A stretch of 23,926 nt of DNA from a virus. Of this stretch, positions 9,496 through 23,450 are shown one piece after another. The stretch is from positions 1-23,926 of IMG/VR virus record IMGVR_UViG_3300046782_000455, one strand, 5' to 3'. The notes under the pieces are model-generated. The model searched no databases, was not told where the DNA came from, and was given only the letters and a program-made list of their open reading frames with translations. The position numbers were made by a program, and so were the translations under genes. Every line of letters begins with the position of its first letter. Positions within the stretch are counted from its first letter, which is position 1.

Positions 9496-10238
9496 AGTAT
9501 AGGAACGTCCATGTAAAGTTTTCCAAGCTCAATCAAGTCGTTTGATTTGTCGCCGTGAACCCAAATTAAATTCTCTTCGCGCATCTTCCGGTATTGCTCA
9601 ATCGAAAAATGCGGCGAGTTGTAATAGCTGCGCATGCCGGGCACGTTGGCCCATCCTCGCTTTTGGAACTCACCGGCATAAAGGTAGTCCCACCCACCCC
9701 AAACCGGGATTTCGCCGATGCGTCGAGTGAGGAAATCCAGAAATTTTTTGTCGCAGGACAACATGCAGTTGCCGTTAATGTGCAAATTGATGCCGGGACC
9801 CGAAACCATAGGCCCGGCCTGCACCACTGGCCCCTTTGCGTTGGCGTCATCCCACGCCTGCGAGAGCCGGGCAACCCAATCTCGAAAAATAGGCCCTCCG
9901 TCTGCCTCGAAACAGAATATTGCCTTGTAGTGCGGCACTTTCCTCGCCAGAATCATCGAAGCCGTCCACTCCATCGTTGAGCGCCAAAGGTCGTTGCACC
10001 CGTTGGGCCATCCGGTGCCCTTTCGGCGGCTCCGGTAGGCGTAAAGGTTGAATTTTCGAGACAGGGTGTCTAACACCTTGCGGTCTTCATCAGACACGAC
10101 GGTATCGAAGCGCTGGACGAGCAAAAAATCAGCAATTTCACAGTGCTTCGGCTCCAGGCTCGCCAAATAGTGAGCGAGCTTGATTGCGGCGTCCTTGTCG
10201 CCCTGCCAGAACTGAAGTGCGAGGAGAATTTTGTTCAT
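9492..10238 (-). CDS. GT-A type glycosyltransferase candidate 2
   Basis: A 248-residue protein starting MNKILLALQFWQGD at 10238. That ATG shares bases with the TAA of candidate 1 (TAATG); a longer in-frame start would only shadow the neighbour. Key motifs are R-K-G-T-G-W-P-N-G-C-N-D-L-W (73-85), a pattern of phage and bacterial glycosyltransferases that precedes the donor site, and a hydrophobic strand ending F-C-F-E-A-D-G-G-P at 108-116, where E111-A-D113 takes the place of DxD. Residues 155-165 (NGNCMLSCDKKF) and GGWDYLYAGEF (181-191) fit the acceptor half. It is coupled to candidates 1 and 3. Substrates are unknown. Confidence 0.65.
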   Translation of the reverse strand: MNKILLALQFWQGDKDAAIKLAHYLASLEPKHCEIADFLLVQRFDTVVSDEDRKVLDTLSRKFNLYAYRSRRKGTGWPNGCNDLWRSTMEWTASMILARKVPHYKAIFCFEADGGPIFRDWVARLSQAWDDANAKGPVVQAGPMVSGPGINLHINGNCMLSCDKKFLDFLTRRIGEIPVWGGWDYLYAGEFQKRGWANVPGMRSYYNSPHFSIEQYRKMREENLIWVHGDKSNDLIELGKLYMDVPIL

Positions 10239-12478: not shown

Positions 12479-12790
12479 TTACTCAGGGGTTAATTTTTGA
12501 CCGTCGTTCCATTTCGAGTCGTCTTCGAGTGGGACGTATTCGGTCGCGTCGTTCGTTTCAACTTTAGGTGCCGGGTGAGCCAGCACTAAAATACTTTGGA
12601 CCACCATTTGGTAGCCCCTTAATTCGCCGGAGCGAATGAGGATTGCGTTGACATGCCCTCGGTTCAGGAGGGTCGGAGCGGATTCAACCAGCTTGGGAAT
12701 AAATCTTTTGCCCGTCTCTGTGTCCAGAAACTTCGCAAGATTTTCTTCGTCTATGGTTGTCCAGTCTAAGGGGCCAGCTTGTATTTCCAT
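12479..12790 (-). CDS. Small acidic protein between portal and scaffold, 103 aa
   Basis: A 103-residue protein I cannot name. It starts MEIQAGPLDWTTIDEENLAKFLDTETGKRFIPKLVESAP. The first half is helical with a patterned D-T-E-T-G-K-R-F-I segment, the middle has an NRGHVNAILIRSGELRGYQMVV strand-helix unit, and the end is acidic and polar. It sits 18 bases after the portal stop and 2 bases before the scaffold ATG, so it is part of the head-assembly block and is probably a virion or assembly accessory protein. The ribosome site is weak (no GGAG before the ATG), so translation may be coupled to the portal gene. Confidence 0.6.
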   Translation of the reverse strand: MEIQAGPLDWTTIDEENLAKFLDTETGKRFIPKLVESAPTLLNRGHVNAILIRSGELRGYQMVVQSILVLAHPAPKVETNDATEYVPLEDDSKWNDGQKLTPE

Positions 12791-12808
12791 TGGGGTAACA
12801 CTGTTTTG

Positions 12809-14953
12809 TTATTGTTGAGGGGGACCAGCTACGGGGGCCGCTTCTCCGGGTGCCGGAGGAGGGCCGCTTAAAAGTGCTCCTTGCGCGTGCGCGTCGTGCA
12901 TCTGCGAAAGTTGTCCGGCCATCGCGTCGTGCTGTTTCAACTGCTGAATGGCGGGACCCATTTTCTTCACCAACTCCGCCACGTCCGCCAGCTTGTCCTT
13001 GGGGACGCCCTGGTGAATTGCGTTATTGTAGTGCTCGTTGATGTGGGCGAAAACTGCTTCGAGAACTTCAGTAGTCATCTGCCCATCCATAATGTGCTGC
13101 GCGATTTGCTGCGCGGCTGGCATGATGACGCTCAAATGGATTTCATGATTGTCCCTGGGGGAAACTGGCACCGGCTGCCCGTGCATCAGCAAGCCGAGTT
13201 CCAAGTTTTGCATCCGGTCGTTCTCCGCGTGCTCGGTCGGGTCCGCATCAGGCAGCAAAACCTTGTCCACGAAATCAGAACTGACCCGCGCGGTCAAGTC
13301 TTCCACTTCGAGGGCGCGCTGATTGTAAAGCGGGTTGCCTTTCTTCTCTGCGGCCACGGACACAATCAACTGGCGCTGCATCGGCGTCAAATCCTTGACT
13401 GTGCCGGAAGCGGCCTGCTCGGAAAGTTCGTCGAGTTCCTCTCGGGTCATTATCTGGAGAAGCTCTTTTTGCATCAGCTTTGCATCCTCGTCGTCGGTCT
13501 CAGAGTCACAAAGGCGCTTCTGCATGGTGCCCATCATCGTTGAAAACTGTTCGAGGAAGCGGGAGATTCGAACGTCCTGGCCTTCCTCTTCCCGTTGGGC
13601 GAGGAGATTCCACGCCGCCGGGCTCCTCATGGCTTCGCCGCCCTGTTGCTGCGGCACGGACGTAGAGCCAATCAACTGATTGACCAACTGGTTGAAATAA
13701 ACGTCCAGCTTCAAAAAGCCGTCCACGTTTCCGTCCATCTTGCGCTCCAGAATATCCCAGCCGGAGGGGAAAATACAGGTCGCGCCAATCACGGACATTT
13801 TGAAAGTGTGAATTCGCTTAACGTCGCCCTGGACGATAGTTTTGCCGCTCATGATTAGCCGGTCAACAACTTCGTTGCGGGTGCGGTCAATCATCCCAGC
13901 GAGTTCGTAAATGTCACGGCCAACGCCCTTTGACCCGTGCAGAGTGCCGTTACCTTTCTGAAAGCTGAAAAACGAAACCGTATCCTCCATTGACTCGAAA
14001 CGGTCATCTCGGGAAAAGATTTCAAGCATTTCCGGCCCGGCCATTCGATAATGAGACACTTTGCCGGATACTTCACGCGCCAGGAGGGTATAGACAACCA
14101 CAACCGAATTCCCGGCCATGTAGCTTGCACCAATAGTAAGTTCCCGAAGCGCGTTTTGATACCACGTCTCCAAGGTGCCGCCCACATTGAGCCGGTCACG
14201 AATTTGAATTGGACTGGCGCGATTGATGGCGTCGATTGTGTTCTTGAGATTCCAGCCAGCCGTTTCAGCAGCTTCGCGGTCTTTGATATGGGCGAAAAGT
14301 TCATGGGGGAGAAAAACTTCCTTCAGCACGCAGATTTGAGCCATGCGCGGGTCTGCTTTGGTGCCGTCCGCGACGAAGCTTTCGTCCTGCTTGAAGTGAA
14401 AGGGGAACCAGTGATATTCATCGAGCCACGCGACGATGGTGTGACCGAAAAGCGCGTTGTCGAAAGCAATGTCCTCTATCAGGGTGCGCCAGCCTTTGCG
14501 GCCCCGGCAGACCTTGGTGATGGCGGCGCGGAAGCGTTCCGTTTTCTCGGTCGCGTTCTGCCACTTGGAACTGAGGGCGGAGTTGGTAAGATATTTCACG
14601 CCGTCGATTGCGGCCACGAAGCGCGGCCCCACTTTTTCAATCATCGAGGGCAACGGCTTCGTGGTGAAGTTCGAGCGCCAGCCTAGTCCTTCAGCCTCCA
14701 GCTTGTAGGCGTCATAAGGACGCTCCGCATTATACTTCGCCAGGATGCGGGAGTTGACGATGGACCGATTCCTACCGGCCATGATGACCGTCTTGACCAC
14801 GTCGCGAGCCATGCCAATATCGCGAATGCTTTTTTGCGTCGGCTCGCCCTTGGAGTCGAGCATGGGAGATTGAATGACCGAGCCCAGGTAGTTTTGAGCG
14901 TAAGGCATTACGCCGCCAAGTCCTGCGGTCGGTTGATAAGAAGGTGACGGCAT
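12809..14953 (-). CDS. Portal protein (head-tail connector), podovirus-like
   Basis: A 714-residue protein. Size, position directly after the terminase block and content fit the dodecameric portal through which DNA is packaged. It has an N-terminal alpha/beta region with a conserved helix (DVVKTVIMAGRNRSIVNSRI), a mixed middle (GWRTLIEDIAFDNALFGHTIVAWLDEY, 154-180), a helical stem-like stretch (YELAGMIDRTRNEVVDRLIMSGK), then a long C-terminal helical part with Gln-rich barrel-like sequence. The pattern PRDNHEIHLSVIMPAAQ near 600-620 recurs, from memory, in portals of T7-like and related short-tailed phages. The end is Pro/Ala/Gln-rich (APGEAAPVAGPPQQ). GAGGA lies 7 bases before the ATG, and promoter-like site C is 10 bases upstream. 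Confidence 0.8.
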   Translation of the reverse strand: MPSPSYQPTAGLGGVMPYAQNYLGSVIQSPMLDSKGEPTQKSIRDIGMARDVVKTVIMAGRNRSIVNSRILAKYNAERPYDAYKLEAEGLGWRSNFTTKPLPSMIEKVGPRFVAAIDGVKYLTNSALSSKWQNATEKTERFRAAITKVCRGRKGWRTLIEDIAFDNALFGHTIVAWLDEYHWFPFHFKQDESFVADGTKADPRMAQICVLKEVFLPHELFAHIKDREAAETAGWNLKNTIDAINRASPIQIRDRLNVGGTLETWYQNALRELTIGASYMAGNSVVVVYTLLAREVSGKVSHYRMAGPEMLEIFSRDDRFESMEDTVSFFSFQKGNGTLHGSKGVGRDIYELAGMIDRTRNEVVDRLIMSGKTIVQGDVKRIHTFKMSVIGATCIFPSGWDILERKMDGNVDGFLKLDVYFNQLVNQLIGSTSVPQQQGGEAMRSPAAWNLLAQREEEGQDVRISRFLEQFSTMMGTMQKRLCDSETDDEDAKLMQKELLQIMTREELDELSEQAASGTVKDLTPMQRQLIVSVAAEKKGNPLYNQRALEVEDLTARVSSDFVDKVLLPDADPTEHAENDRMQNLELGLLMHGQPVPVSPRDNHEIHLSVIMPAAQQIAQHIMDGQMTTEVLEAVFAHINEHYNNAIHQGVPKDKLADVAELVKKMGPAIQQLKQHDAMAGQLSQMHDAHAQGALLSGPPPAPGEAAPVAGPPQQ

Positions 14954-14962
14954 ATTATGTCC

Positions 14963-15226
14963 TCAAATAGTCTCTTCCCGGCGCTGTTTTGGCAACCACA
15001 CCCTCTTCCACTTTCCAACCGGGCACTTCTCCGTCGCCAGCATCACTTTTGCCATAATCAGACAGCCGCACTTGCCGCAAACACCCTCCTTCGCGAAGTC
15101 GCAGCCCTCGCACATTCGGCCCCGCCCGGTGATTACGTGCGCGGGGGCGATAGGGTCGTAGCCATACCATTTTGCATACTGGTTGAGGAAAAACGCTTTT
15201 ACGAAGGTTAGAAAAAGCATAATCAT
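14963..15226 (-). CDS. Small Cys-rich zinc-ribbon-like protein, 87 aa
   Basis: An 87-residue protein starting MIMLFLTFVKAFFLNQYAKW at 15226, where ATGA overlaps the stop of the previous gene; the longer open frame upstream is only a shadow. An N-terminal hydrophobic helix (about 3-16) could anchor it to a membrane or pack in a core. Residues 38-72 carry C-x2-C-x6-7-C-x2-C-x-C and a later C-P-x-G-x-W (MCEGCDFAKEG, CGKCGC, KCPVGKW), a zinc-binding pattern. The two Cys-rich genes form a pair between terL and the portal. Function is unknown; a role in packaging or regulation is a guess. Promoter-like site C lies in its last bases. Confidence 0.7.
   Translation of the reverse strand: MIMLFLTFVKAFFLNQYAKWYGYDPIAPAHVITGRGRMCEGCDFAKEGVCGKCGCLIMAKVMLATEKCPVGKWKRVWLPKQRREETI
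14964..14995 (-). promoter_or_regulatory. Promoter-like site C (TTGCCA-N20-TATTTG with GAGAC), ahead of the portal gene
   Basis: On the minus strand TTGCCA is followed by 20 bases ending AGAGAC and then TATTTG, leaving 10 bases to the portal ATG. GAGGA within those bases can serve as ribosome site. The site overlaps the 3' end of the Cys-rich gene. Confidence 0.6.
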
Positions 15227-15786
15227 ATTGAGCGCCTCCGCCAGCAGCAGCCGGGCAGTTCCGGATTGTCCACCGTCTGGCTTTCCAGGTGAACGGTAGT
15301 GGGCAGGTCTTCTCCCAGCACTTCGCACGCGTGCAGCCGCCCGTCCTGGAAGCGCTTCTGAATTATTTCCTCCCGCAGCACTTTGACTGCGGCCTTGCAA
15401 GAGGCGCACCCACCGGGCAGCGAAGTATTTTTCGGGCACCCGGCACACACCTGCGCGCGGTCGCGGGCAAGTTGCGTGTCCACAAATTGATTCCATTTGT
15501 CGGCCTTCAGTTTATTCAGCCATTGAATCACGCGGGTCTTCAGCGATGCCTTTTTCGTCTGGACCGCAGTAAGCCCGTTGTCATCCCGGCAGAGGACCGG
15601 GTTGCGCTGGCACGCTTGGGCTACAACTTCATTGGGCGGGTCACCTGGGGGCAGCCCGGCGCGCTTACGATACGCTATCACGCGCGCGATGACTCCCTGC
15701 CACGTTTGGCCAAAGAGGCGCGCGCCGTCGCTGTCTAAAAAATAATATCCGCCGTGCGGATACACGTTTGGATTGAGTGTCTTCAT
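15223..15786 (-). CDS. Cys-rich phage protein downstream of terL, 187 aa
   Basis: A 187-residue protein. The N-terminal 65 residues contain a pattern I have seen next to phage terminases (Y-F-L-D-S-D-G-A-R-L-F-G-x-x-W, then V-I-A-Y-R-K-R-A-G-L-P-P-G-D-P and V-V-A-Q-A-C-x-R-N-P). The C-terminal half holds a Cys cluster (V-C-A-G-C-P-K-N, then GGCASCKAAV, and HACEVLG), a probable zinc site, followed by PGCCWRRRSI. It starts inside the terL stop (ATGA) and its own stop overlaps the next Cys-rich gene, so the three genes are translationally coupled. Function is not known; DNA binding in packaging is one possibility. No catalytic motif is visible. Confidence 0.65.
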   Translation of the reverse strand: MKTLNPNVYPHGGYYFLDSDGARLFGQTWQGVIARVIAYRKRAGLPPGDPPNEVVAQACQRNPVLCRDDNGLTAVQTKKASLKTRVIQWLNKLKADKWNQFVDTQLARDRAQVCAGCPKNTSLPGGCASCKAAVKVLREEIIQKRFQDGRLHACEVLGEDLPTTVHLESQTVDNPELPGCCWRRRSI

Positions 15787-17738
15787 AAAATTGGTTCCAT
15801 TGAACCGGGCTGCCGCATGCTGGTATCGAGATAGTCCGACATATTGGTAGCGTCGATTCTCACTCCATTAGAAAATCCTGGCACTGGCCAGTCGTCGGTG
15901 TCATCCACCCCGTCAGGAACGTCCACCGATTTCCCGCGCATGGACAAAATGATTCCGCTGCCCTTCCTGGCGGCGTGAACTAAAAGGCTCAGCGCATCCG
16001 CTTCGTTAGGCGAGCCAAATCCGCGCGACTCGTAATCGCGTTTGCTTTCCACTTTCGATTTCCCGTTGAGGACCCGGAAGCGTCGATTGGTGAGTTGTTG
16101 AGAAAGCTTGGACATATCAAGTTGAGGAGCCAGCATGAGATACCCAAATTCTCCCCACTGCCGCATCGCAAACCACAGGACTGAATACATTCTTTCAAAT
16201 TGTTCATTTGCTTTCTTTGAGTCCTCCAACATTATTTTCTCTTCGCCCGCGCCCTCCGAATAGTTCACGTCGTGAATGATTGAGGACCACTCGTATTTGA
16301 TAAGGTCCGCAACGCCTGCGCCGTGGCCGGTTCGGTCGCACGCGTAATACTCCGCCTTGACTCCCGCTTTGCGGTTCATGTCGAGCACAGATTTTTTCAT
16401 CGCGACGGTGTCCCCCTTGGGGAGAACGAAAAGCTGGTTCGCTTGCAGGCCCCACCTGGGGACAACTCGGTCTCCAGGATTCGGCCCTTTGAACATCACC
16501 TTGCGCCCGTTCGGAAATTCCAGACTCGGAGGAAGTTTTATTCCGCTGGCGAGGCCCCACTGGCCCACGATATGAATTGCGTCGTCGCCGCCCTCAAGTG
16601 CAAGGTCCGTTGCTGACACCGGCTCCGGCTCACGATACCAAATGAACTCGCCGCGCCACTTGTCCAGCATCCCCGGCGGTATCACGGTAGCTTCGAGGCC
16701 CATCGTCGGATACATGCCGCGCCCCATCGTCCGGTAGCCGCTGCCGTTCCTGCCGCCCGCGTTGGCGGCAATGCTGGCCAGACCTTCCTGCGTTTGGAGA
16801 CCTGGGTAAACTATCCGGCCCTGGAGAACGTTTTCGCATTGCTCCCCGTCGATGCGGACCACGTCCCACCCACGGGTAGATTTCCATCGGTAATCTTTAT
16901 CCTCGTCCAGGTTTGACCAACCAGCGGGAGGCTCCGCGCGCTGAGCCACTTTGCTAGAGGCATCCGTTGGGTTATAAGCACCAAAAATTTTGAATCCGCC
17001 CACGCCCTTCGCTTCGATTTCGGAAAGGACGTTGTCAATGTCGAGCCAAATACCATCAGGGACATTTTCGATTTCATCGAGAAAAATAAAGAGTCGTGAG
17101 AGAGGGCCAAATTTCGGGTGAGGCTGCGGACGCGGTCTCCGGTGTTGCCCCTGAAGTCGCCCGGCCTTTTTGACATTCCCCTTCGGGATGACCACGCCGG
17201 AAATCGAGGAGAGCAAATCGCGCCGGTTCATTCCAATAAACAGGTCGCCAATCTGGCCGGGCATCGGGAGAGTTGCGTTTGCGTGCAGCGCTACAATGTG
17301 AGAGAAAAGATTCTGCTCCAGGTGGTTTTCGCTGGGGCCTACCACGCGAATCGTCGTCCACTCCGGGTCCCGGACCCATTCAAGAAAAAGCCGGACGCCC
17401 ATCCCGTAGGATTTGCCCATTTTGGCCGCGCCCATGATGAGGCCCATGTCCGCCGTAGCGAACAAGTCCCAAACCTGTTTCACGGAGTGCGGGTCCGGCG
17501 TAAATTGGTTTGGAGACCAAAGCATCTGCGCCGCTTCCTCCATTCCGTTCGCCTCCATAATGGAGTGCAGAAAATTAATCAGAATCGGGTGCGCTTTTTC
17601 CGGGTCGTCCTGCGGCTTCAGTGCGCACGGAAGGCCCACGAAATCGGACACGAGCCGGGCGGCGTCGATATGCTGCTGCTTGTGCAGTAGCGCAGCGACG
17701 GCGAGGGCGGCGTCATGCGTTGGCTTATGTGGTAACAT
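15783..17738 (-). CDS. terL: Terminase large subunit (ATPase and nuclease)
   Basis: A 651-residue protein, the motor that packages DNA into the procapsid and cuts concatemers. The ATPase domain has Walker A G-A-A-K-M-G-K-S at 103-110, a hydrophobic strand and Walker B L-F-I-F-L-D-E-I-E at 216-224 (D221/E222), and a coupling motif G-A-Y-N-P-T-D at 253-259. The C-terminal RNase H-like nuclease shows acidic residues in the expected order: D378 (ATDLAL), D468 (YACDRTGHG) and D581 (SPNEADAL). An N-terminal extension of about 90 residues precedes the ATPase. The start at 17738 overlaps the 97-residue gene by 14 bases. No small terminase subunit is recognised in the window. This is the most secure gene of the region. 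Confidence 0.95.
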   Translation of the reverse strand: MLPHKPTHDAALAVAALLHKQQHIDAARLVSDFVGLPCALKPQDDPEKAHPILINFLHSIMEANGMEEAAQMLWSPNQFTPDPHSVKQVWDLFATADMGLIMGAAKMGKSYGMGVRLFLEWVRDPEWTTIRVVGPSENHLEQNLFSHIVALHANATLPMPGQIGDLFIGMNRRDLLSSISGVVIPKGNVKKAGRLQGQHRRPRPQPHPKFGPLSRLFIFLDEIENVPDGIWLDIDNVLSEIEAKGVGGFKIFGAYNPTDASSKVAQRAEPPAGWSNLDEDKDYRWKSTRGWDVVRIDGEQCENVLQGRIVYPGLQTQEGLASIAANAGGRNGSGYRTMGRGMYPTMGLEATVIPPGMLDKWRGEFIWYREPEPVSATDLALEGGDDAIHIVGQWGLASGIKLPPSLEFPNGRKVMFKGPNPGDRVVPRWGLQANQLFVLPKGDTVAMKKSVLDMNRKAGVKAEYYACDRTGHGAGVADLIKYEWSSIIHDVNYSEGAGEEKIMLEDSKKANEQFERMYSVLWFAMRQWGEFGYLMLAPQLDMSKLSQQLTNRRFRVLNGKSKVESKRDYESRGFGSPNEADALSLLVHAARKGSGIILSMRGKSVDVPDGVDDTDDWPVPGFSNGVRIDATNMSDYLDTSMRQPGSMEPIL

Positions 17739-18018
17739 TGCGCCCGCAGGTCAAAATCTGGTCCAGCTTCCCGCTCGGGAACTTCACCAGCTTCGCGCGC
17801 TGCCATCCCTTACGGCCATACACTGCAATCCTCCGGCGCTGCCCTGGGCGGCATCCGAAGTTGACCACCCGCGAATCCATCATAACGGAGCCGCGCTTTG
17901 GCCTGGGGGTCGTCCTGGGGAGATAGAGCCGGGCGCGCCATCCGTTCGCCGTCCAGCTTTGCGCAATCAGCCGGAGCGCCTCCAGGTGGCGCTGGTTGTA
18001 AACTAGGAACACGTTCAT
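17725..18018 (-). CDS. Small conserved-looking phage protein before terL, 97 aa
   Basis: A 97-residue protein. The first 35 residues (MNVFLVYNQRHLEALRLIAQSW..NGWRARLYL) read like the nucleotide-binding start of a glycosyltransferase or nucleotidyl-binding fold. The rest, R-V-V-N-F-G-C-R-P-G-Q, AVYGRKGWQRAKLVKFPSG and CGRN, is short and basic. No catalytic DxD is present, so any activity is doubtful. It overlaps terL by 14 bases, so it could be a packaging accessory protein, although it does not resemble a small terminase I know. The ribosome site is poor. Confidence 0.55.
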   Translation of the reverse strand: MNVFLVYNQRHLEALRLIAQSWTANGWRARLYLPRTTPRPKRGSVMMDSRVVNFGCRPGQRRRIAVYGRKGWQRAKLVKFPSGKLDQILTCGRNVTT

Positions 18019-18241: not shown

Positions 18242-18273
18242 TCTATAGTCTCTGTTTCAACGACAAAGTGTAG
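18242..18273 (-). promoter_or_regulatory. Promoter-like site D (GAGAC-TATAGA; poor -35 box)
   Basis: On the minus strand it contains AAACAGAGACTATAGAG; the 13 bases AAACAGAGACTAT are identical to site A. The upstream box is only CTACAC at the standard distance, or CCTACA with one extra base, so the -35 match is poor. It lies just after the terminator 18285-18317 and just before the 50-residue gene. Confidence 0.5.
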
Positions 18274-18284
18274 GAACAAAATGC

Positions 18285-18317
18285 AAAAAGAGCCGGTCCT
18301 CGAAAGGCCCCGGCTCT
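18285..18317 (-). terminator. Intrinsic terminator after the recombinase block
   Basis: On the minus strand AGAGCCGG pairs with CCGGCTCT around an inner CCT/AGG helix and TTCG loop, followed by TTTTTG. Stem, stable tetraloop and T-run make it the clearest terminator of the window. It separates the recombinase block from the terL block. A 12-base palindrome CTCTAGCTAGAG (18314-18325) overlaps its upstream arm. Confidence 0.85.
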
Positions 18318-18344
18318 AGCTAGAGTTCTCTGTTTAAACGATGA

Positions 18345-18536
18345 TTACTTCATTGGTTTCCCTTTCTCCTGGCTATGGCTAGGCCAGGGGCCATTTTGGT
18401 GACTTGGTTCCTTGCCGTTCGCGATGCGCGCGAGCCGCAACTCGCACTGCTCTTTGCGGAGAGCATTCGCCTCGTCCACTGCGTCCAGTCCGGTCGCCCG
18501 GCTGGCCAATCTTTCTTGAAACCGTCCGCCTCTCAT
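18345..18536 (-). CDS. Small charged protein coupled to the recombinase, 63 aa
   Basis: A 63-residue protein starting M-R-G-G-R-F-Q-E-R-L at 18536. The ATG overlaps the recombinase TGA (ATGA), and AAAGGA lies about 10 bases upstream, so translation is well supported. The sequence is rich in Arg, Glu and Ala with an amphipathic helix (DEANALRKEQCELRLARIANG) and a polar Pro/Ser/His/Lys end. No family is recognised. It could be a small DNA-binding or recombinase-modulating protein; that rests only on the coupled position. It is the last gene before the terminator. Confidence 0.6.
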   Translation of the reverse strand: MRGGRFQERLASRATGLDAVDEANALRKEQCELRLARIANGKEPSHQNGPWPSHSQEKGKPMK

Positions 18537-19225
18537 ACTGCTACGTCCTTTCGATGCGAGCGGAGACCCCATCCGTTGAGAATCTGCCGCACGCCTTTTT
18601 GTTTCCAGAGCTTGCCGGTCCGGGTTCGGTAATTGCCAGCATTCAAAGTGCCTGCAATCGTGTTGTCGTTTTCTCCCGCTTCGCGCAACGTGCGCATAGC
18701 GTTCAAAGTTTCCCACTCTCCCGGCTGGGTGCCGTAGGGAGTGTTGCCGCCGCAGTATTCACCACGGGCGCGTTTCTCGTCGCGGGCCTTTTTGAGCTTC
18801 ATAACGAGGACGGATTTCTCCCACTGCGCTACGGCTCCAATGACTTGCCGGATTAAAATCCTGGTCGGGTCGGCCTGATTACTTGCTTGGTCATAAAGCC
18901 CGCCTTGGTCAGTCGCGAAAACCTTAATCCCGCGCTGGCGGCATTCCTTCAGAATAAATTCTTGAATCATCAATTCGCGGGCGAGCCGGTCAAGCCGCTC
19001 AACCACGATTGCGTCGCCGGGTTGCGCGGTCGCTAAGAGCTTCACGAGCGCGGGCCGGTCCATACCATCCACCGTGCCAGAGACCGCAGCATCGAAAAAT
19101 TTTTCGAAGTGCAAATCCAGGATATTCACCCGGCAGAATTCCACGACAGCGTCGCACTGCCGCCGCTCGCCGTCGCCGTCGATTTGAGAGTGTCCGCTTA
19201 CGCGGAGATACGCAAAAGTTTTCAT
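18533..19225 (-). CDS. Small serine recombinase (resolvase/invertase type)
   Basis: A 230-residue member of the serine recombinase superfamily. The N-terminal catalytic domain has the nucleophile in Y-L-R-V-S (Ser10), the Q-R-x-Q-C-like segment ERRQCDAV, D-A-A-V-S-G-T, and E-R-L-D-R-L-A-R (76-83) with the arginines that activate the DNA phosphate. A dimerisation helix follows (RILIRQVIGAVAQWEKS), then PYGTQPGEW and a C-terminal helix-turn-helix-like part (TLREAGENDNTIAGTLNAG, VRQILNGWG). It is far shorter than large phage serine integrases (usually over 400 residues), so it more likely resolves, inverts or moves DNA than integrates the phage. It overlaps the membrane-protein gene upstream (ATGA) and the 63-residue gene downstream. 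The recombination site is unknown. Confidence 0.9.
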   Translation of the reverse strand: MKTFAYLRVSGHSQIDGDGERRQCDAVVEFCRVNILDLHFEKFFDAAVSGTVDGMDRPALVKLLATAQPGDAIVVERLDRLARELMIQEFILKECRQRGIKVFATDQGGLYDQASNQADPTRILIRQVIGAVAQWEKSVLVMKLKKARDEKRARGEYCGGNTPYGTQPGEWETLNAMRTLREAGENDNTIAGTLNAGNYRTRTGKLWKQKGVRQILNGWGLRSHRKDVAV

Positions 19226-19539
19226 TGATAATACGTGCGATGAATTTTGTCTGAAATTTCGGCAGCGAGGGAGCGCTTCGGATTTCGGCTAAACCAGTCG
19301 TGCAGCAGCCGGGGGCCGACAAAAACGCACTGGGTTATGATGCACGCCGCCGCCAGCCCCAGCACTGTTAGAATCCCTTCCCAGTAACGTGCGACAAGCC
19401 ATACAATCCCGCCGGTCAGAGCGAGCCAAAAGGCCAGCTTCACTAAGGTCCAGACCGTCGAAAGCATCCCGTCAGCCAGCTTTGACCATCCGGGGGACGT
19501 AACGAGAATCAGCACTAGCAACAAGGTAATCGTGTTCAC
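19222..19539 (-). CDS. Membrane protein with two to three spans, 105 aa, GTG start
   Basis: A 105-residue hydrophobic protein. It has an N-terminal hydrophobic segment (TITLLLVLILVTSPGW, about 3-18), a second span (about 30-50, LVKLAFWLALTGGIVWLVA) and a third (about 55-75, ILTVLGLAAACIITQCVFV), then a basic tail (WFSRNPKRSLAAEI). The start is GTG at 19539, overlapping the TGA of the small upstream gene (GTGA). The gene is coupled to the recombinase downstream. The family is not recognised. A holin-like, superinfection-exclusion or anchoring role is possible; nothing in the sequence chooses among these. Confidence 0.6.
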   Translation of the reverse strand: MNTITLLLVLILVTSPGWSKLADGMLSTVWTLVKLAFWLALTGGIVWLVARYWEGILTVLGLAAACIITQCVFVGPRLLHDWFSRNPKRSLAAEISDKIHRTYYQ

Positions 19540-19682
19540 AGGGTCACCGGCCTTCCACAGTAGAACGCCGCCAGCCGGGCAACGTCCGCGTTGCGCTTGG
19601 CCCGAATCTGCGCGGCCCTTGCGAGCCGGTCTCGGAATTCTTTTTCTCGGGCTGCCTGAGCCGCTTTTTCTTTTTCATTCAT
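19536..19682 (-). CDS. Small Arg/Ala/Glu-rich protein, 48 aa
   Basis: A 48-residue frame starting MNEKEKAAQAAREKEF at the ATG at 19682. A longer version would need a TTG inside a hairpin and is not preferred. The product is one long charged helix, rich in Ala, Arg and Glu, ending FYCGRPVTL, and could form a coiled coil. The stop shares bases with the GTG of the membrane-protein gene. It is the first gene after the hairpin at 19715-19740 in this block. Function is unknown. Confidence 0.5.
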   Translation of the reverse strand: MNEKEKAAQAAREKEFRDRLARAAQIRAKRNADVARLAAFYCGRPVTL

Positions 19683-19714
19683 GTCTAAGCTTCGCACACC
19701 GTCCGGCAATAGCA

Positions 19715-19740
19715 AGCCCCTCAAATCACTTTGAAGGGCT
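19715..19740 (-). terminator. Hairpin after the fibre-like gene, weak terminator candidate
   Basis: AGCCCTTCAAA pairs with TTTGAGGGGCT (11 bp, one G-T pair) with loop GTGA. The following TTGCTATTG is not a good T-run, so it may attenuate transcription or protect an mRNA end. The stretch 19683-19793 contains this hairpin and a small CACC/GGTG stem but no gene. Confidence 0.45.
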
Positions 19741-19793
19741 GCTTATTCACCATTTAAGGTGTATTACCTGGGGCTGATTATTCAGTGGCCCGG

Positions 19794-20540
19794 TCAATCC
19801 GTAAAGACGGAGACTCCCCGTCCTATTAAAGTTGCTTTGTCCGCGATGCCCTGGCCAGTCGGAGGAGCCGGGATATTCTGCTGAAGGCCGACACTGCCAG
19901 TAACAAAAGCAGGATTGGCCACGCACCGCGCTAGAATCGCGTTCACTTGGGCAGACGGCAAAAAGTTGCTCTGGATGATTACGTGTTGCCCGTTGCCCGG
20001 CAAAAAGTTTGGTAGGTTCACCGCCGTCAGCGCGCCGTTGTTTTGAATCGAAATATTGTTTCCTGCCCCCACGGTCGTAAGCAACGGAAAGTCAATCGTC
20101 TTCAGAATAGCGTTGTCTGTGATGGTGATGCCGCTGCCGCCGTTCTGAGCGTTCAACGGGTCTATCTGCGTGAGATTCGGAAAACGGATTTCAAGGAGCC
20201 CGGCAAAAAACGCAAGGAAAAATCCGCCGAGACTTTCCGTCATCGTGAACGTGAGCACGCTGGACATACCCGGAGCGTCCCCGTATAAATTGTATCCGAT
20301 TAGGTCAGTGCTCACCCCGATAACTGGAGGAGTTGCTACCTTGGAGCCGAGATACTTAATTAATTTGCAAAGCCAATTCATAGAATCAATCCCAAGGTCG
20401 CTGTTTGCTGGGTTAAGGGTGCCGTCAGAAAGTGCCACGATGACGCGTTGCATCCGGTCCACTGTGTCGCCAGTGGTAATCAAGTCCCCATACTGACCGA
20501 AGTCAGCAATGAGGGCGTCCAGGTCAGCCGCCGCAGACAT
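19794..20540 (-). CDS. Fibre-like protein with leucine-rich/beta-solenoid segment
   Basis: A 248-residue protein. Residues 1-65 are helical (DLDALIADFGQYGDLITTGDTVDRMQRVIVAL). A middle segment has hydrophobic strands and a Gly/Phe-rich stretch (LTFTMTESLGGFFLAFFAGLLEIRFPNL). Residues about 115-200 show a repeat of about 20-24 residues: LLEIRFPNLTQID, ITITDNAILKTIDFPLLTTVG, NISIQNNGALTAVNLPNFLPG, HVIIQSNFLPSAQVNAIL. Such L-x-x-I/V-x-x-P-x-L ladders occur in phage fibres and receptor-L-like solenoids that bind surface targets. It lies far from the tail block, after promoter-like site E. The role is inferred from repeat pattern. Confidence 0.5.
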   Translation of the reverse strand: MSAAADLDALIADFGQYGDLITTGDTVDRMQRVIVALSDGTLNPANSDLGIDSMNWLCKLIKYLGSKVATPPVIGVSTDLIGYNLYGDAPGMSSVLTFTMTESLGGFFLAFFAGLLEIRFPNLTQIDPLNAQNGGSGITITDNAILKTIDFPLLTTVGAGNNISIQNNGALTAVNLPNFLPGNGQHVIIQSNFLPSAQVNAILARCVANPAFVTGSVGLQQNIPAPPTGQGIADKATLIGRGVSVFTD

Positions 20541-20546
20541 AACCGG

Positions 20547-20777
20547 TTAGGGTTTGCCGATGAAGGCGATGAAATTCAGCAAGGTGGAAATCGGATTCAG
20601 TTTGCAAGCTTCCAGGAACGCGCCGCTCGAAGCAGCGAATCCGGAGGAAACTGCAACCACTGCCGTTCGCTCGATGATAGTCGAATCGAAAGGAAGTTCC
20701 GTCGCGCTCGTCAAGGTCATCGCCTGCGAGGCCGCAACCAACTTGTTGTATTCAGCCGTTGAGAATGTGTGTGCCAT
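20547..20777 (-). CDS. Small protein of unknown function, 76 aa
   Basis: A 76-residue protein starting MAHTFSTAEYNKLVAAS. The middle is a Ser/Ala/Thr/Val-rich segment (TLTSATELPFDSTIIERTAVVAVSSGFAASSG) and the C-terminus is hydrophobic (NPISTLLNFIAFIGKP), which may be a short membrane or packing helix. The ATG lies 5 bases after the TACTTA of promoter-like site E, with a GGAGG too far upstream to act, so a leaderless message is possible. It ends 6 bases before the fibre-like gene and is in the same block. No family is recognised. Confidence 0.55.
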   Translation of the reverse strand: MAHTFSTAEYNKLVAASQAMTLTSATELPFDSTIIERTAVVAVSSGFAASSGAFLEACKLNPISTLLNFIAFIGKP

Positions 20778-20781
20778 ACGT

Positions 20782-20988
20782 CTAAGTAGTCTCTCCTCCG
20801 GAAGAAAATGTCAGGCTCGAAAAATTAACGCCGAGGACTGATGGAGTTTTACCGCTCGCGATTTCAGTATTCGAATGCATTCCTGATGCCTGCCCCGGCG
20901 AGCGGCGTCGCGACTGTTCATTACGTTGCTGGTCGGCTTTCGGGCATACGTATCCCACAGCACGGAGGCAGCTATTCGCAGCTTCCAT
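20782..20988 (-). CDS. Possible small protein, 68 aa, overlapping promoter-like site E
   Basis: An open frame from an ATG at 20988 to a TAG at 20782, between the tRNA and the 76-residue gene. A longer version would begin inside the tRNA at a GTG and is rejected. The end (TPSVLGVNFSSLTFSSGGETT) reads like phage protein, but the ribosome site is weak and no motif is seen. If it is not a gene, the 260-base stretch 20778-21042 holds only promoter-like site E. Confidence 0.3.
   Translation of the reverse strand: MEAANSCLRAVGYVCPKADQQRNEQSRRRSPGQASGMHSNTEIASGKTPSVLGVNFSSLTFSSGGETT
20783..20814 (-). promoter_or_regulatory. Promoter-like site E (CTGACA-N20-TACTTA with GAGAC)
   Basis: On the minus strand CTGACA, 20 bases ending AGAGAC, then TACTTA; five bases later comes the ATG of the 76-residue gene. 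The stretch AGAGACTACTTAGACG closely matches AGAGACTATTTAAGACG of site A. Confidence 0.6.
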
Positions 20989-21042
20989 CTCTGCTTTTAG
21001 CGAACGGTTTGGTCCAAGTTTGCTCTTGGCGTCGCTGGAAGT

Positions 21043-21118
21043 TGGTTGCGGGAGGAGGACTCGAACCACCAACCTTCGCCTTATGAGGGCGACTATCTGA
21101 CCCTTGATATACCCCGCA
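21043..21118 (-). tRNA. tRNA with anticodon CAT (Met elongator or Ile2)
   Basis: A 76-base cloverleaf with the 3' CCA encoded. The acceptor stem is TGCGGGG/TCCCGCA (one G-U), the D stem TATC/GATA with an 8-base loop, and the anticodon stem TCGCC/GGCGA with loop CTCATAA, giving anticodon CAT at 21083-21085. The variable loop is AGGTT, and the T stem GGTGG/CCTCC (one T-T mismatch) has loop TTCGAGT and discriminator A. It lacks the initiator signature (unpaired first pair, three G-C in the anticodon stem), so it is an elongator Met tRNA or the Ile2 type whose C34 is modified to lysidine. The sequence cannot separate these. It stands alone among the small genes. Confidence 0.93.
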
Positions 21119-21129
21119 AATTCAAAGAA

Positions 21130-21249
21130 TTAAAACCGTTTCGACTGGCGCATCAGAAACCAAACCGCGCCAGTAATCAGGACCACCTTGCCAGCGAAGG
21201 CGACAGCGGCCACAATCAAAAAGAGCATTATGCTCGGAGCTTCAGTCAT
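21130..21249 (-). CDS. Tiny membrane protein, 39 aa
   Basis: A 39-residue frame: MTEAPSIMLFLIVAAVAFAG begins it, a continuous hydrophobic helix covers about 7-33, and it ends M-R-Q-S-K-R-F. Short N-terminus, one span and a basic tail give a predicted N-out orientation. There is no clear Shine-Dalgarno; the ATG overlaps the end of a still smaller frame (21242-21313), which might couple translation. It ends 11 bases before the tRNA. Function is unknown. Confidence 0.5.
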   Translation of the reverse strand: MTEAPSIMLFLIVAAVAFAGKVVLITGAVWFLMRQSKRF

Positions 21250-21313
21250 ACAATAGATTAGTTTGCTGTGTTGAAAATTGCAGCGCTTTTTTATAACGTG
21301 AGCGCCACGGCAT
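21242..21313 (-). CDS. Possible leader peptide, 23 aa
   Basis: A 23-residue frame M-P-W-R-S-R-Y-K-K-A-L... directly after promoter-like site F. Its TGA overlaps the ATG of the 39-residue gene (ATGACTGA), as in coupled leader peptides. The GGAGG abuts the ATG with no spacing, so a normal ribosome site is absent. Weak. Confidence 0.2.
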   Translation of the reverse strand: MPWRSRYKKALQFSTQQTNLLYD

Positions 21314-21316
21314 CCT

Positions 21317-21348
21317 CCAATAGTCTCTTGAAGAGACTAATAAGTCAA
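21317..21348 (-). promoter_or_regulatory. Promoter-like site F with a perfect 19-base palindrome
   Basis: On the minus strand TTGACT, 20 bases ending AGAGAC, then TATTGG. Uniquely among the six sites the GAGACTA core is mirrored: TAGTCTCTT-G-AAGAGACTA at 21321-21339 is a perfect inverted repeat with 9-bp arms. It is therefore both a promoter-like copy and a possible operator for a dimeric regulator, or a short hairpin. It lies between gmd and the small-gene/tRNA block. Confidence 0.55.
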
Positions 21349-21350
21349 CC

Positions 21351-22292
21351 TTACAAATCCGCGTCCACCATCATTCGGACAAGCCCGTCAAAGGTCACCT
21401 GGGGACGCCAGTCCAGCAGCACCGCCGCTTTGGTCGCGTCCCCCAGCAGGTCGTCAACTTCAGTCGGCCTGCACAGGTCCGGGTTTGTCACCACATATTT
21501 TTTCCAGTCCAGGCCAACGTGTTTAAACGCTGCCTCTGCGAACTCCCGCACGGAGTAATGCTTCCCTGTGGCGACGACAAAATCCGTTGGCGATTCCTTC
21601 TGCAACATCAGCCACATAGCCTTCACGTAGTCACCGGCGAAGCCCCAGTCCCGCCGGGCGTAAATATTGCCGAGTTCCAACTCGTCTTGCTCTCCGCGCC
21701 GGATTGCGCCTATCGCTTTGGTGATTTTCCGGGTGACAAAGTTCTCTCCCCGGAGAGGAGATTCATGATTGAAAAGGATTCCGTTGCTCGCGTGCATCCC
21801 ATACGCCTCCCGGTAATTCACCACCGAGTTGTAGGCAAAGACCTTAGCGCACCCGTAAGGTGAGCGCGGGTGAAACGGCGTCTGCTCATGCTGAGGGGGA
21901 GGCGTCGAGCCGAACATTTCACTGCTGCTCGCTTGATAAAATCTGGTGACGGAGTTCTTCAGCATTTCCAGCAGCCGCGTTACCCCGGTGCCGGTCACGT
22001 CGGCGCAGTAGACCGGGTTTTCAAAAGAGACTTTCACATGGGACATTGCGCCCAGGTTATAAACTTCGTCCGGTTCTGAAATGTCGATGGCGCGCTCCAG
22101 AGAGTTCGCATCGGCTAAGTCAGCATATATCAATGTGACCGCGTCCTCAATGTTCAATCTCTGAAGCCGCCACAAGTTCGGTGTGCTTGCCCGGCGCATG
22201 GTGCCGAAAACTTTGTAGCCTTTGGAGAGGAGTAGCGACGCAAGATACGCGCCGTCCTGCCCGGTGATTCCTATAATGAGTGCTCTTTTCAT
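21351..22292 (-). CDS. gmd: GDP-mannose 4,6-dehydratase
   Basis: A 313-residue extended short-chain dehydrogenase that turns GDP-D-mannose into GDP-4-keto-6-deoxy-D-mannose, the first step to GDP-L-fucose, in the cytoplasm with NADP. The Rossmann motif G-I-T-G-Q-D-G (8-14) is the family signature. T-M-R-R (31-34) follows the second strand and fits NADP binding. The catalytic set is S-S-S-E-M at 122-126 and Y146-x3-K150 (SPYGCAK). Family motifs NHESPLRGENFVTRKI (175-190) and GNIYARRDWGFAGDYVKAMW (208-227) are intact. It is slightly shorter than usual (about 345-370). The ATG at 22292 overlaps the fcl TGA; an upstream in-frame start is not preferred. Paired with the next pathway enzyme, so the assignment is firm. 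Confidence 0.93.
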   Translation of the reverse strand: MKRALIIGITGQDGAYLASLLLSKGYKVFGTMRRASTPNLWRLQRLNIEDAVTLIYADLADANSLERAIDISEPDEVYNLGAMSHVKVSFENPVYCADVTGTGVTRLLEMLKNSVTRFYQASSSEMFGSTPPPQHEQTPFHPRSPYGCAKVFAYNSVVNYREAYGMHASNGILFNHESPLRGENFVTRKITKAIGAIRRGEQDELELGNIYARRDWGFAGDYVKAMWLMLQKESPTDFVVATGKHYSVREFAEAAFKHVGLDWKKYVVTNPDLCRPTEVDDLLGDATKAAVLLDWRPQVTFDGLVRMMVDADL

Positions 22293-23218
22293 TGGCGAAA
22301 AATAAAGTCCGTGTATGCACACGCAAGGCCAACCGTGAAACTGATTTCCGGTTTCCAGCCAAGCTCTAAAATTTCCGAGTTGTCCAGATACCTAGCGGGC
22401 GTCCCGTTGGGCATCGTGGTATCCCAGCGAATTTCTCCGTGGTATCCTACGGTTTGGGCGATGAAGTTTGCAACATGGCGTAGCTCGAAAACGTTCGCGG
22501 GGTTCCCGATGTTGACCGGCTCCGCTCCTGAATAGCCACGCATAAGGATAATGAGCCCTCTGGCCAAGTCCTCCGAATAGAGAAACTCTCTGACCGGACT
22601 GCCGTCTCCCCACAAAGTGACACTGTGGTCCCCTCGCTCTTTCGCCTCGTGAAATCGGCGAAGCATTCCAGGTATAACGTGTGAGTCTTCGAGCGAGTAG
22701 TGGTCTTTGGGTCCATAAAGGTTTGTGGGAATGCAGGAGATAAAGTTATCTCCGTATTGTCTTCGGTAAGCTTGACACATTTCTATGCCAGCTAATTTTG
22801 CCATCGCGTAGGATGAGTTAGTCGGTTCGAGTGGCCCGGTCAAAAGGTATTCCGGCTTGAGCGGGTTTGGTGCAACCCTGGGATAGATGCACGCACTGCC
22901 GAGAAACAAAAGCTTCTGGACAGCATAGGCGTGAGCGTAGCGGAGAAGGTTGTCTTCAATCCGCAAGTTCTCCCCAATGAACTCAGCCGGAAATCTATTG
23001 TTGGCATTAATGCCGCCGACACGCGCCGCACACGCGAAAACATACTCCGGCCTGTGGACGGAGAAAAACCAGCGGACCGCAATCGGGTCTGTCAAGTCTA
23101 CTTCCTTCCGAGTGCAGGTGACCGTGTTCTTGTATCCCTGGTCATACAACACCCGCAGCAACGCGGAGCCCACGAGACCCGTGTGACCGGTAACGAAAAT
23201 TTTACTTTCTTTTTCCAT
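22289..23218 (-). CDS. fcl: GDP-L-fucose synthase
   Basis: A 309-residue epimerase/reductase that converts GDP-4-keto-6-deoxymannose to GDP-L-fucose. It has the NADPH-binding G-H-T-G-L-V-G at 11-17, the family segment A-A-R-V-G-G-I-N-A-N (64-73), the catalytic G-S-A-C-I-Y-P (107-113, Ser108) and S-S-Y137-A-M-A-K141. Further signatures are NLYGPKDHY and WGDGSPVREFLYSEDLARG. Length matches the family (about 310-320). The start MEKESKIFVTG at 23218 is chosen for its AAGGA ribosome site and because the longer frame is only a shadow. It overlaps the metallopeptidase gene by 17 bases upstream and gmd by 4 bases downstream, so the three are in one operon. Confidence 0.93.
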   Translation of the reverse strand: MEKESKIFVTGHTGLVGSALLRVLYDQGYKNTVTCTRKEVDLTDPIAVRWFFSVHRPEYVFACAARVGGINANNRFPAEFIGENLRIEDNLLRYAHAYAVQKLLFLGSACIYPRVAPNPLKPEYLLTGPLEPTNSSYAMAKLAGIEMCQAYRRQYGDNFISCIPTNLYGPKDHYSLEDSHVIPGMLRRFHEAKERGDHSVTLWGDGSPVREFLYSEDLARGLIILMRGYSGAEPVNIGNPANVFELRHVANFIAQTVGYHGEIRWDTTMPNGTPARYLDNSEILELGWKPEISFTVGLACAYTDFIFRQ

Positions 23219-23450
23219 GACGGTATCCTTCGCGCCACAAAACTTTCGCAAGGCCGGTTGCGATTTCCTCGACATAGGGCTCGTCAATGAAAGGCGCGAA
23301 ACAGTGAATCAATTCGTGCAGCAGAGTGTCCAGGTGTTGCTTTGGTGTCAGGCTGGGGTCCAGTTCAATCAAGTCACGACCTTTTGCATTGGGCGTAAAT
23401 TGTCCCATCTGCAAAGGCCGCTCGACTACTCGGGGGAGTTTACGCGTCAT
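23202..23450 (-). CDS. Minimal HELIH zinc metallopeptidase-like protein, 82 aa
   Basis: An 82-residue protein with the zinc-protease motif H45-E-L-I-H49 (TLLHELIHCFAPFIDEPYVEEI); E61 or E62, 12-13 residues on, could be the third ligand, as in gluzincin-like folds. The N-terminal 30 residues give two short strands (QFTPNAKGRDLIELDPSL). Small phage proteins of this kind occur widely; their substrates are mostly unknown. GGGAGA lies about 8 bases before the ATG. The gene overlaps the small basic gene upstream and fcl downstream. It might mature or degrade a protein, or only bind DNA or metal; the sequence does not decide. Confidence 0.75.
   Translation of the reverse strand: MTRKLPRVVERPLQMGQFTPNAKGRDLIELDPSLTPKQHLDTLLHELIHCFAPFIDEPYVEEIATGLAKVLWREGYRHGKRK

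Follow-up and report, generated by a model that had tools for sequence, protein, structure and literature searches.

A small serine recombinase beside the terminase gene of uncultured phages, possibly a resolvase that closes or monomerises the packaged genome

This study found that a small serine recombinase is a near-universal gene, fixed in position, of a widespread, diverse and apparently uncultured phage lineage. The gene was examined in a linear virus record of 23.9 kb (the whole stretch of DNA that was analysed, hereafter the window), which is 99.99% identical over 18.1 kb with part of a 69.7-kb record. Within this lineage, the recombinase looks like standard genome-handling equipment rather than a switch or a passenger. 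It may be a resolvase acting on a terminally redundant genome packaged by headful, which it would close or monomerise; we give this reading, with its presumed site, reaction and role, a probability of about 0.4. The features of the window are collected in Table 1; genes and gene starts were taken from simple in-house ORF picking.

Table 1. Features of the window around the recombinase gene
Feature	Position	Strand	Remarks
Conserved 714-aa protein	12809..14953	minus	"portal" by position only
Terminase large subunit	15783..17738	minus	relatives' PHROG matches and predicted structure
97-aa gene	17725..18018	minus	directly upstream of terminase; in 10 of 13 compared records
Imperfect copy of GTTTAAAC: GTTTCAAC	18254..18261		
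Intrinsic-terminator-like hairpin	18281..18317	minus	after the two-gene unit
GTTTAAAC palindrome	18332..18339	none	6 nt after the 63-aa ORF; one copy of a site over-represented genome-wide
63-aa ORF	18345..18536	minus	motif LRLARIxNG; no known family
Small serine recombinase, 230 aa	18533..19225	minus	ATG start; catalytic domain, long helix and short C-terminal DNA-binding domain
105-aa ORF	19222..19539	minus	membrane-like by eye; only a sub-threshold Pfam match
Fibre-like gene	19794..20540	minus	proposed switch target; sub-threshold Recep_L_domain match
tRNA-Met(CAT)	21043..21118	minus	

The recombinase ORF has exactly the coordinates assigned to it in the earlier note and the Ser10 and ERLDRLAR motif (residues 76-83) reported there; its strand is newly given here. 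In a Pfam search, the protein matched the Resolvase family PF00239 at 7.5e-26 and, under the cut-off (18.9 vs 21.1 bits), positions 3-50 of the 102 positions of PF07508; PHROG_95 (integrase, 6e-34) and PHROG_125 (invertase) were also matched. In an alignment of 50 sequences, A3, S10, E76, D79, R80 and R83 are invariant, and Y6 and R8 are conserved in at least 90%. The protein has the nucleophile Ser and the conserved Arg, Tyr and Asp residues of the serine recombinase superfamily, residues that we take to be catalytic. Its 230 residues, with a helix at 120-153 followed by three helices, correspond to the architecture of the small serine recombinases (resolvases and invertases, about 180-250 residues). 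PF02796, presumably the classic helix-turn-helix family of resolvases and invertases, was unmatched in the Pfam search (E up to 0.1), which returned solely PF00239 and the sub-threshold PF07508. The same search revealed neither a zinc ribbon nor a coiled coil, and the protein stops at residue 230. Assignment to the large serine integrases was rejected, since the PF07508 match is partial and under the cut-off and the further domains are absent; the earlier view that 230 residues are too few for a typical phage serine integrase holds. The dN/dS ratio was 0.13-0.31 in the six of seven pairs in which it was computable, with dS above 1 in four of those six. Judging by these ratios, the recombinase is more than a chance ORF and is under purifying selection.

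An AlphaFold2 model built from 50 sequences (mean pLDDT 90.7, pTM 0.63) contains the catalytic fold, the long helix at 120-153 and a three-helix C-terminal part. The top Foldseek match of this model was Bxb1. Aligned as a whole with Bxb1 (9iu2_A) in VIA-align, the protein gave a Z of 14.1 with 219 residues aligned at 6.5 A; with gamma-delta resolvase (1zr2_B), Z was 13.4 with 182 residues aligned at 3.9 A, spanning residues 2-220. Residues 157-229 aligned with Bxb1 154-288 at a Z of 7.1, which is middling by the tool's scale (73 aligned, 3.2 A). On the predicted structure, we interpret the protein as a small serine recombinase in which DNA binding falls to a part resembling the compact recombinase domain of large integrases without the zinc ribbon. 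The resolvases of gamma-delta and Tn3 and the invertases Hin and Gin have in common with it the catalytic fold, the long helix, the size and a single small C-terminal DNA-binding part. However, the C-terminal part of the present enzyme matches the start of PF07508 and not the invertase helix-turn-helix family, the res or hix sites of those systems were not found here, and the gene is near-universal in a phage lineage rather than part of a transposon or a fibre cassette.

The likeness to Bxb1 bears on the main rival explanation, namely that the enzyme is a miniature integrase: the phages would be temperate, the recombinase would insert the genome into the host chromosome, and the 60-aa protein encoded beside it would be a directionality factor. 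The best matches of the recombinase include the N-terminal parts of large serine integrases (PHROG_95, Bxb1), the alignment of its C-terminal part with Bxb1 points in the same direction, and operator-like GTTTAAAC sites, which overlie some of the promoters, are what a temperate phage could well have. There are also precedents. ORF14 of phiRSM, a resolvase-like small serine recombinase, is reported to be the proven integrase of a filamentous phage, with an attP matching the 3' end of a tRNA-Ser beside the gene (PMC3816273); the likeness is by description, not sequence, and in contrast to the tRNA-Ser attP of that filamentous phage, tRNA placement is inconsistent here. Integration is also described for phage JC1, in which the attP and a predicted serine recombinase are 41 bp apart, the attP being upstream (PMC9144972). 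Large serine integrases such as Bxb1, TP901-1 and phiC31 (about 500 residues) have the catalytic domain and the compact recombinase domain in common with the present protein, which, by contrast, is less than half as long, lacks the zinc ribbon and the coiled coil, and is accompanied by no prophage or att evidence in 84,980 species genomes. A search of these genomes for the portal returned one match, a 12.7-kb phage-like contig with no host part seen; the search used short conserved peptide patterns followed by tblastn, so that it depends on those peptides. This contig (L121), from a Candidatus Peribacteraceae MAG, carries the same recombinase, terminase and portal (46% portal identity); it may be a phage contig that was binned wrongly, or else it gives a hint of the host. 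A single-sequence scan of the species genomes with the recombinase gave two loci and no relative. Furthermore, no viral contig among those listed exceeds 75.3 kb. The integrase explanation is therefore considered unlikely on the evidence of these searches and of the tRNA placement described below.

The tRNA-Met gene was rejected as an attachment site because of its variable placement. The earlier statement that the recombinase does not lie beside a recognisable attachment site holds. Of 47 further loci scanned, 23 have no tRNA-Met near the recombinase and 24 have one, which in 14 of these 24 lies 0.9-1.4 kb downstream of the recombinase start; among 23 loci, its placement relative to the recombinase varies between -5.9 and +1.4 kb. 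The body of this tRNA, with examples in relatives such as L114, L061 and L066, presumably resembles that of a bacterial initiator tRNA. A U-A pair at 1:72 was seen in 10 of the 21 examined and GGG:CCC anticodon-stem pairs in none of the 21; the tRNA may be an elongator that descends from an initiator, or else an initiator able to evade defences that cut tRNAs.

The recombinase is coupled to its neighbours. As had been described, it lies between a membrane-protein gene, the 105-aa ORF, and a 63-residue gene, and it overlaps each by 4 nt, the former at its start and the latter at its stop. A profile of the 63-aa ORF matched 35 of 54 recombinase loci, 29 of which had built the profile, and gave no match in decoy segments taken from 53 loci; four members of the family gave no convincing match against Pfam or PHROG. 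A terminator-like hairpin follows within 220 nt of the two genes in 30 of the 54 loci; shuffles lead one to expect 2.4, and two control segments inside the terminase have such a hairpin. A near-leaderless sigma-70-like promoter, with transcription from or near the start codon, was found at the recombinase with a score of at least 13 in 20 of 52 loci, compared with 1.25% of control starts. No such promoter precedes the recombinase in the window (score 7.5), where the gene is joined to the 105-aa ORF. By these sequence features, the recombinase and its partner of about 60 residues form a self-contained unit with a terminator and often a promoter of its own.

Two observations on transcription signals were made alongside. 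Consensus -35/-10 boxes 4-9 nt before start codons, which would suggest leaderless transcripts, occur at 26 of 27378 ORF starts in 13 records, where the control rate predicts about 20; enrichment is clear only at the recombinase and is barely over background genome-wide. In 11 of the 53 intervals that separate the recombinase unit from the terminase, the coding strand contains the sequence CACTGTTT (0.4 expected), which may be a late promoter element; in G012 it occurs at 9705, 13409, 25091, 27745 and 37045.

The terminator, and the frequent promoter, at the boundary of early and late genes would also suit a protein that now serves chiefly as an architectural or regulatory DNA-binding protein at this boundary or at pac, with recombination no longer its main role. 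This is improbable, since the invariance of S10, E76, D79, R80 and R83 in 50 sequences argues for retained cleavage chemistry.

The near full-length records of the lineage are 68-75 kb long and largely collinear where a gene-by-gene comparison was made; among other proteins, they encode helicases, a family-A DNA polymerase, a sigma-70-like factor and an RNA ligase. The terminase protein of the window has no direct family match in Pfam or PHROG. Among its 20 aligned relatives, four match PHROG_2 (best 2.9e-8) and one matches PHROG_5713, both of which are terminase large subunit families. Its AlphaFold2 model is closest to Sf6 gp2 (Foldseek E 7.2e-15, TMq 0.28), and T4 gp17 and others were also matched. 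The 714-aa putative portal has no family match, and none of 10 relatives matches PHROGs. Profiles of the terminase and the putative portal found no match among PDB sequences, and tblastn with both against 50,697 phage records (1e-5) gave none. Overlapping contig ends were seen in 8 of 13 records, seven of these 8 being lineage members, and in three of eight further ones the overlap is exact; the overlaps fall at differing map positions, consistent with a circular or circularly permuted map. Terminases of the Sf6 type package by headful, which yields permuted, terminally redundant DNA. Thus, with a terminase model nearest Sf6 gp2 and contig ends consistent with it, the lineage probably packages by headful, a mode that, like the position of pac, is inferred.

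The position of the recombinase relative to the terminase was examined from three directions. A portal-first search, run to avoid a recombinase-first bias, gave 188 loci, of which the best 80 were kept; 34 of these 80, with less than 1.5 kb upstream of the terminase or no terminase start, were set aside. In all 46 portal-first loci with at least 1.5 kb there, several of which are near-duplicates, the recombinase lies upstream of the terminase on the same strand. Four portal-first loci show 1.0-1.5 kb upstream of the terminase; the recombinase is present in two and absent from L189 and L018. The gap between recombinase and terminase is 363-3856 nt (median 834) in the 50 loci showing both. A search with the recombinase profile gave 132 loci, the best 80 of which were kept. 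The recombinase-first set comprises 54 loci: from a total of 81 (the window, L048-L120 and seven others retrieved previously), 27 near-identical ones were removed manually ahead of the counts; L010 and L011 (42-43% identical) stand outside it. The terminase follows 0.1-3.4 kb downstream on the same strand in 53 of the 54, the exception being L120, and the gaps for L051 and L088 are inflated by fused ORF calls. In the terminase-first search, the recombinase or part of it was found in 14 of 20 loci. It is absent upstream of the terminase in L017, with 2.0 kb present, and L018, with 1.4 kb; L019, L020, L028 and L029 have less than 0.75 kb upstream and no recombinase in that stretch. The location that the earlier note gave as inside the structural region is better worded as the upstream edge of the packaging genes, directly before the terminase.

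Exactly one PF00239 gene is present in each of 21 near full-length records, 20 of which are lineage members (the two PF00239 pieces listed for G014 and for G021 are one frame each). In ORF clustering, the recombinase cluster covers 19 of the 20 lineage genomes, and a family search finds the gene in all 20. The tyrosine integrase family PF00589 was found in none of the six records searched. Distances between recombinases correlate with those between terminases (Mantel r 0.543, 49 loci); none of 2000 permutations reached this value, the maximum being 0.262. An unrelated phage, G015, without the lineage terminase, carries a recombinase relative that is 40% identical over residues 4-216 and lies, by eye, in the replication region; among the clusters listed, G015 has solely the recombinase in common with the lineage. 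In L006 (16-591), the recombinase is 74% identical to that of the window while the adjoining terminase is 97% identical, which suggests local replacement or a faster change of the recombinase.

The relative in G015 and the difference in L006 would be expected if the gene were cargo of a transposable unit, as the earlier note had offered, or a recently acquired selfish gene. Plasmids also carry such genes: the three plasmid matches opened (Streptomyces, Rhodococcus and Solidesulfovibrio) encode 225-274 residues with 30-34% identity. Against this stand the fixed position in nearly all relatives, the presence in every near full-length lineage record, the correlation with the terminase and the purifying selection, and no transposase was found among the 10 window proteins scanned. 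The gene is thus hardly likely to be a passenger. A different part of the window does seem to have moved: in the window species, a sugar-nucleotide-type gene pair (gmd/fcl-like by eye), at 21351-23287, is found upstream of the recombinase, and the same pair adjoins glycosyltransferase-like genes in G003 (14357-16275) and G004 (12499-14366); these differing contexts indicate a cassette that moved.

No res- or lox-like site was identified around the recombinase, where no consistent dyad or repeat set was seen, and palindromes upstream of the gene are sporadic among relatives. Promoter dyads were rejected as a general resolution site, with only 2 of 23 loci reaching 9 points; dyads of at least this score occurred in 0.3% of shuffles and in none of 66 control promoters, and those in L061 and L072 are suggestive. 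In 13 records, the palindrome GTTTAAAC, whose 10-bp core is YGTTTAAACR, occurs about 15 times more often than expected (136 copies observed, 9.1 expected). In 18 of 20 lineage genomes, each with 7-17 copies, no other 8-bp palindrome is as strongly over-represented. Of the 136 copies, 117 lie within ORFs of at least 110 aa; in a few cases, two flagged and others by eye, a copy directly follows the -35 box of a promoter-like sequence. These copies look like dispersed operators or stoperators. They were rejected as the recombinase site: the conserved unit is merely 10 bp, and GTTTAAAC is not obligatory for the gene because G003 and G018 retain it with zero copies and one copy, respectively. No gene tracks GTTTAAAC well, the best cluster (a 197-aa ORF) being present in 12 of 18 carriers and neither of the two others.

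Long imperfect inverted repeats were observed 3-11 kb upstream of the recombinase, near a divergent junction, with arms of up to 71 bp and loops of 36-176 nt. They were noted without a shuffle control at G003 70036-70242, G004 69192-69376 and G019 71641-71882, and also in L053, L058, L064, L087, L093 and L106. The structure recurs while the sequence mostly differs, and a replication origin or a structured RNA is possible.

These hairpin-like repeats, found in many relatives, together with the nearby fibre-like gene and with the size and catalytic class of the enzyme, would fit a DNA invertase acting as a switch on a segment with a tail fibre or a promoter. The hairpins were rejected as an invertible switch, given their loop lengths and arms that differ between most genomes, and look like folded structures rather than recombination sites. 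Among the matches listed between near-identical assembled contigs, in groups of up to nine from different samples, none is inverted. Inverted repeats in 18300-21350 are at chance level (one pair against 0.62 expected, with the best score reached by 48 of 100 shuffles), although this test could miss weak sites or sites elsewhere. With the position of the gene conserved in relatives as well, the option of switching a fibre gene, raised in the earlier note, comes up against the refuting condition stated there so far as contigs can reveal it, and an invertase is very improbable.

Of the three roles first proposed for the gene, the resolution of genome multimers fits best, even though no res site or repeat set was found among the dyads and palindromes searched. 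The resolvase reading is supported by the fixed position, the single PF00239 gene per record without a tyrosine integrase in the six records searched, the overlapping contig ends, the likeness of the terminase model to Sf6 gp2, the dN/dS ratios and the co-variation with the terminase, the self-contained unit, and the small serine recombinases of other phages described below; evidence against it is that no site was found, that the G015 relative occurs without the lineage terminase, and that L017, L018 and L189 lack the gene. In this mechanism, the packaged genome would be terminally redundant. A recombinase site close to its own gene, with a packaging start near the terminase, would then lie within the redundant ends. 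By joining two direct copies of this site, the recombinase would close the infecting genome into a circle or cut dimers to monomers, and the coupled protein of about 60 residues may be an accessory or control factor. In P1, Cre-lox beside pac closes or monomerises the genome and is thus a working analogue of the proposed job; Cre, however, is a tyrosine recombinase.

Small serine recombinases are found in other phages as well. They have been listed (PMC8026635) for phiCD38-2 and D6, whose prophages are proven plasmids, and there the proposed job is the same. However, a ParA-type plasmid prophage was rejected for the present lineage and is unsupported because PF13614, the partition family searched, is absent from all 21 records, and no plasmid-prophage evidence was seen here. 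Myoviridae sp. ctjtQ328 (MW202879), an unrelated circular phage of 36.5 kb, encodes a 222-aa "gamma delta resolvase" one gene from the terminase small subunit and near repA. Proximity to the terminase is common to both, but this protein is 24% identical and belongs to a different phage, where it is near repA. It is one of the four annotated phage matches opened, all 24-30% identical; the others are a 213-aa protein of Arthrobacter phage 1191A and two large recombinases, from NIIg3.2 (494 aa) and Marinitoga camini virus 1 (484 aa). A literature search found no description of such a recombinase module beside the terminase.

In sum, a small serine recombinase in a phage is commonly interpreted as a transposon passenger, a fibre switch or a degraded integrase, and the near-universal occurrence of the present one in a diverse lineage points to a site-specific step of genome circularisation or monomerisation by a serine recombinase. 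More speculatively, and with a rather low likelihood, the stripped-down recombinase and its dedicated partner of about 60 residues would be an independent, lineage-defining module that circularises or monomerises a headful genome beside the terminase. It would correspond to Cre-lox but be built on a serine recombinase; its DNA-binding architecture would be new, and a directionality factor may be part of the module. If true, this would provide a compact recombinase that lacks a zinc ribbon and comes with its own natural partner. It would also offer, for phages in which no Cre-like enzyme is recognised, a way of turning terminally redundant DNA into a circle that can be tested.
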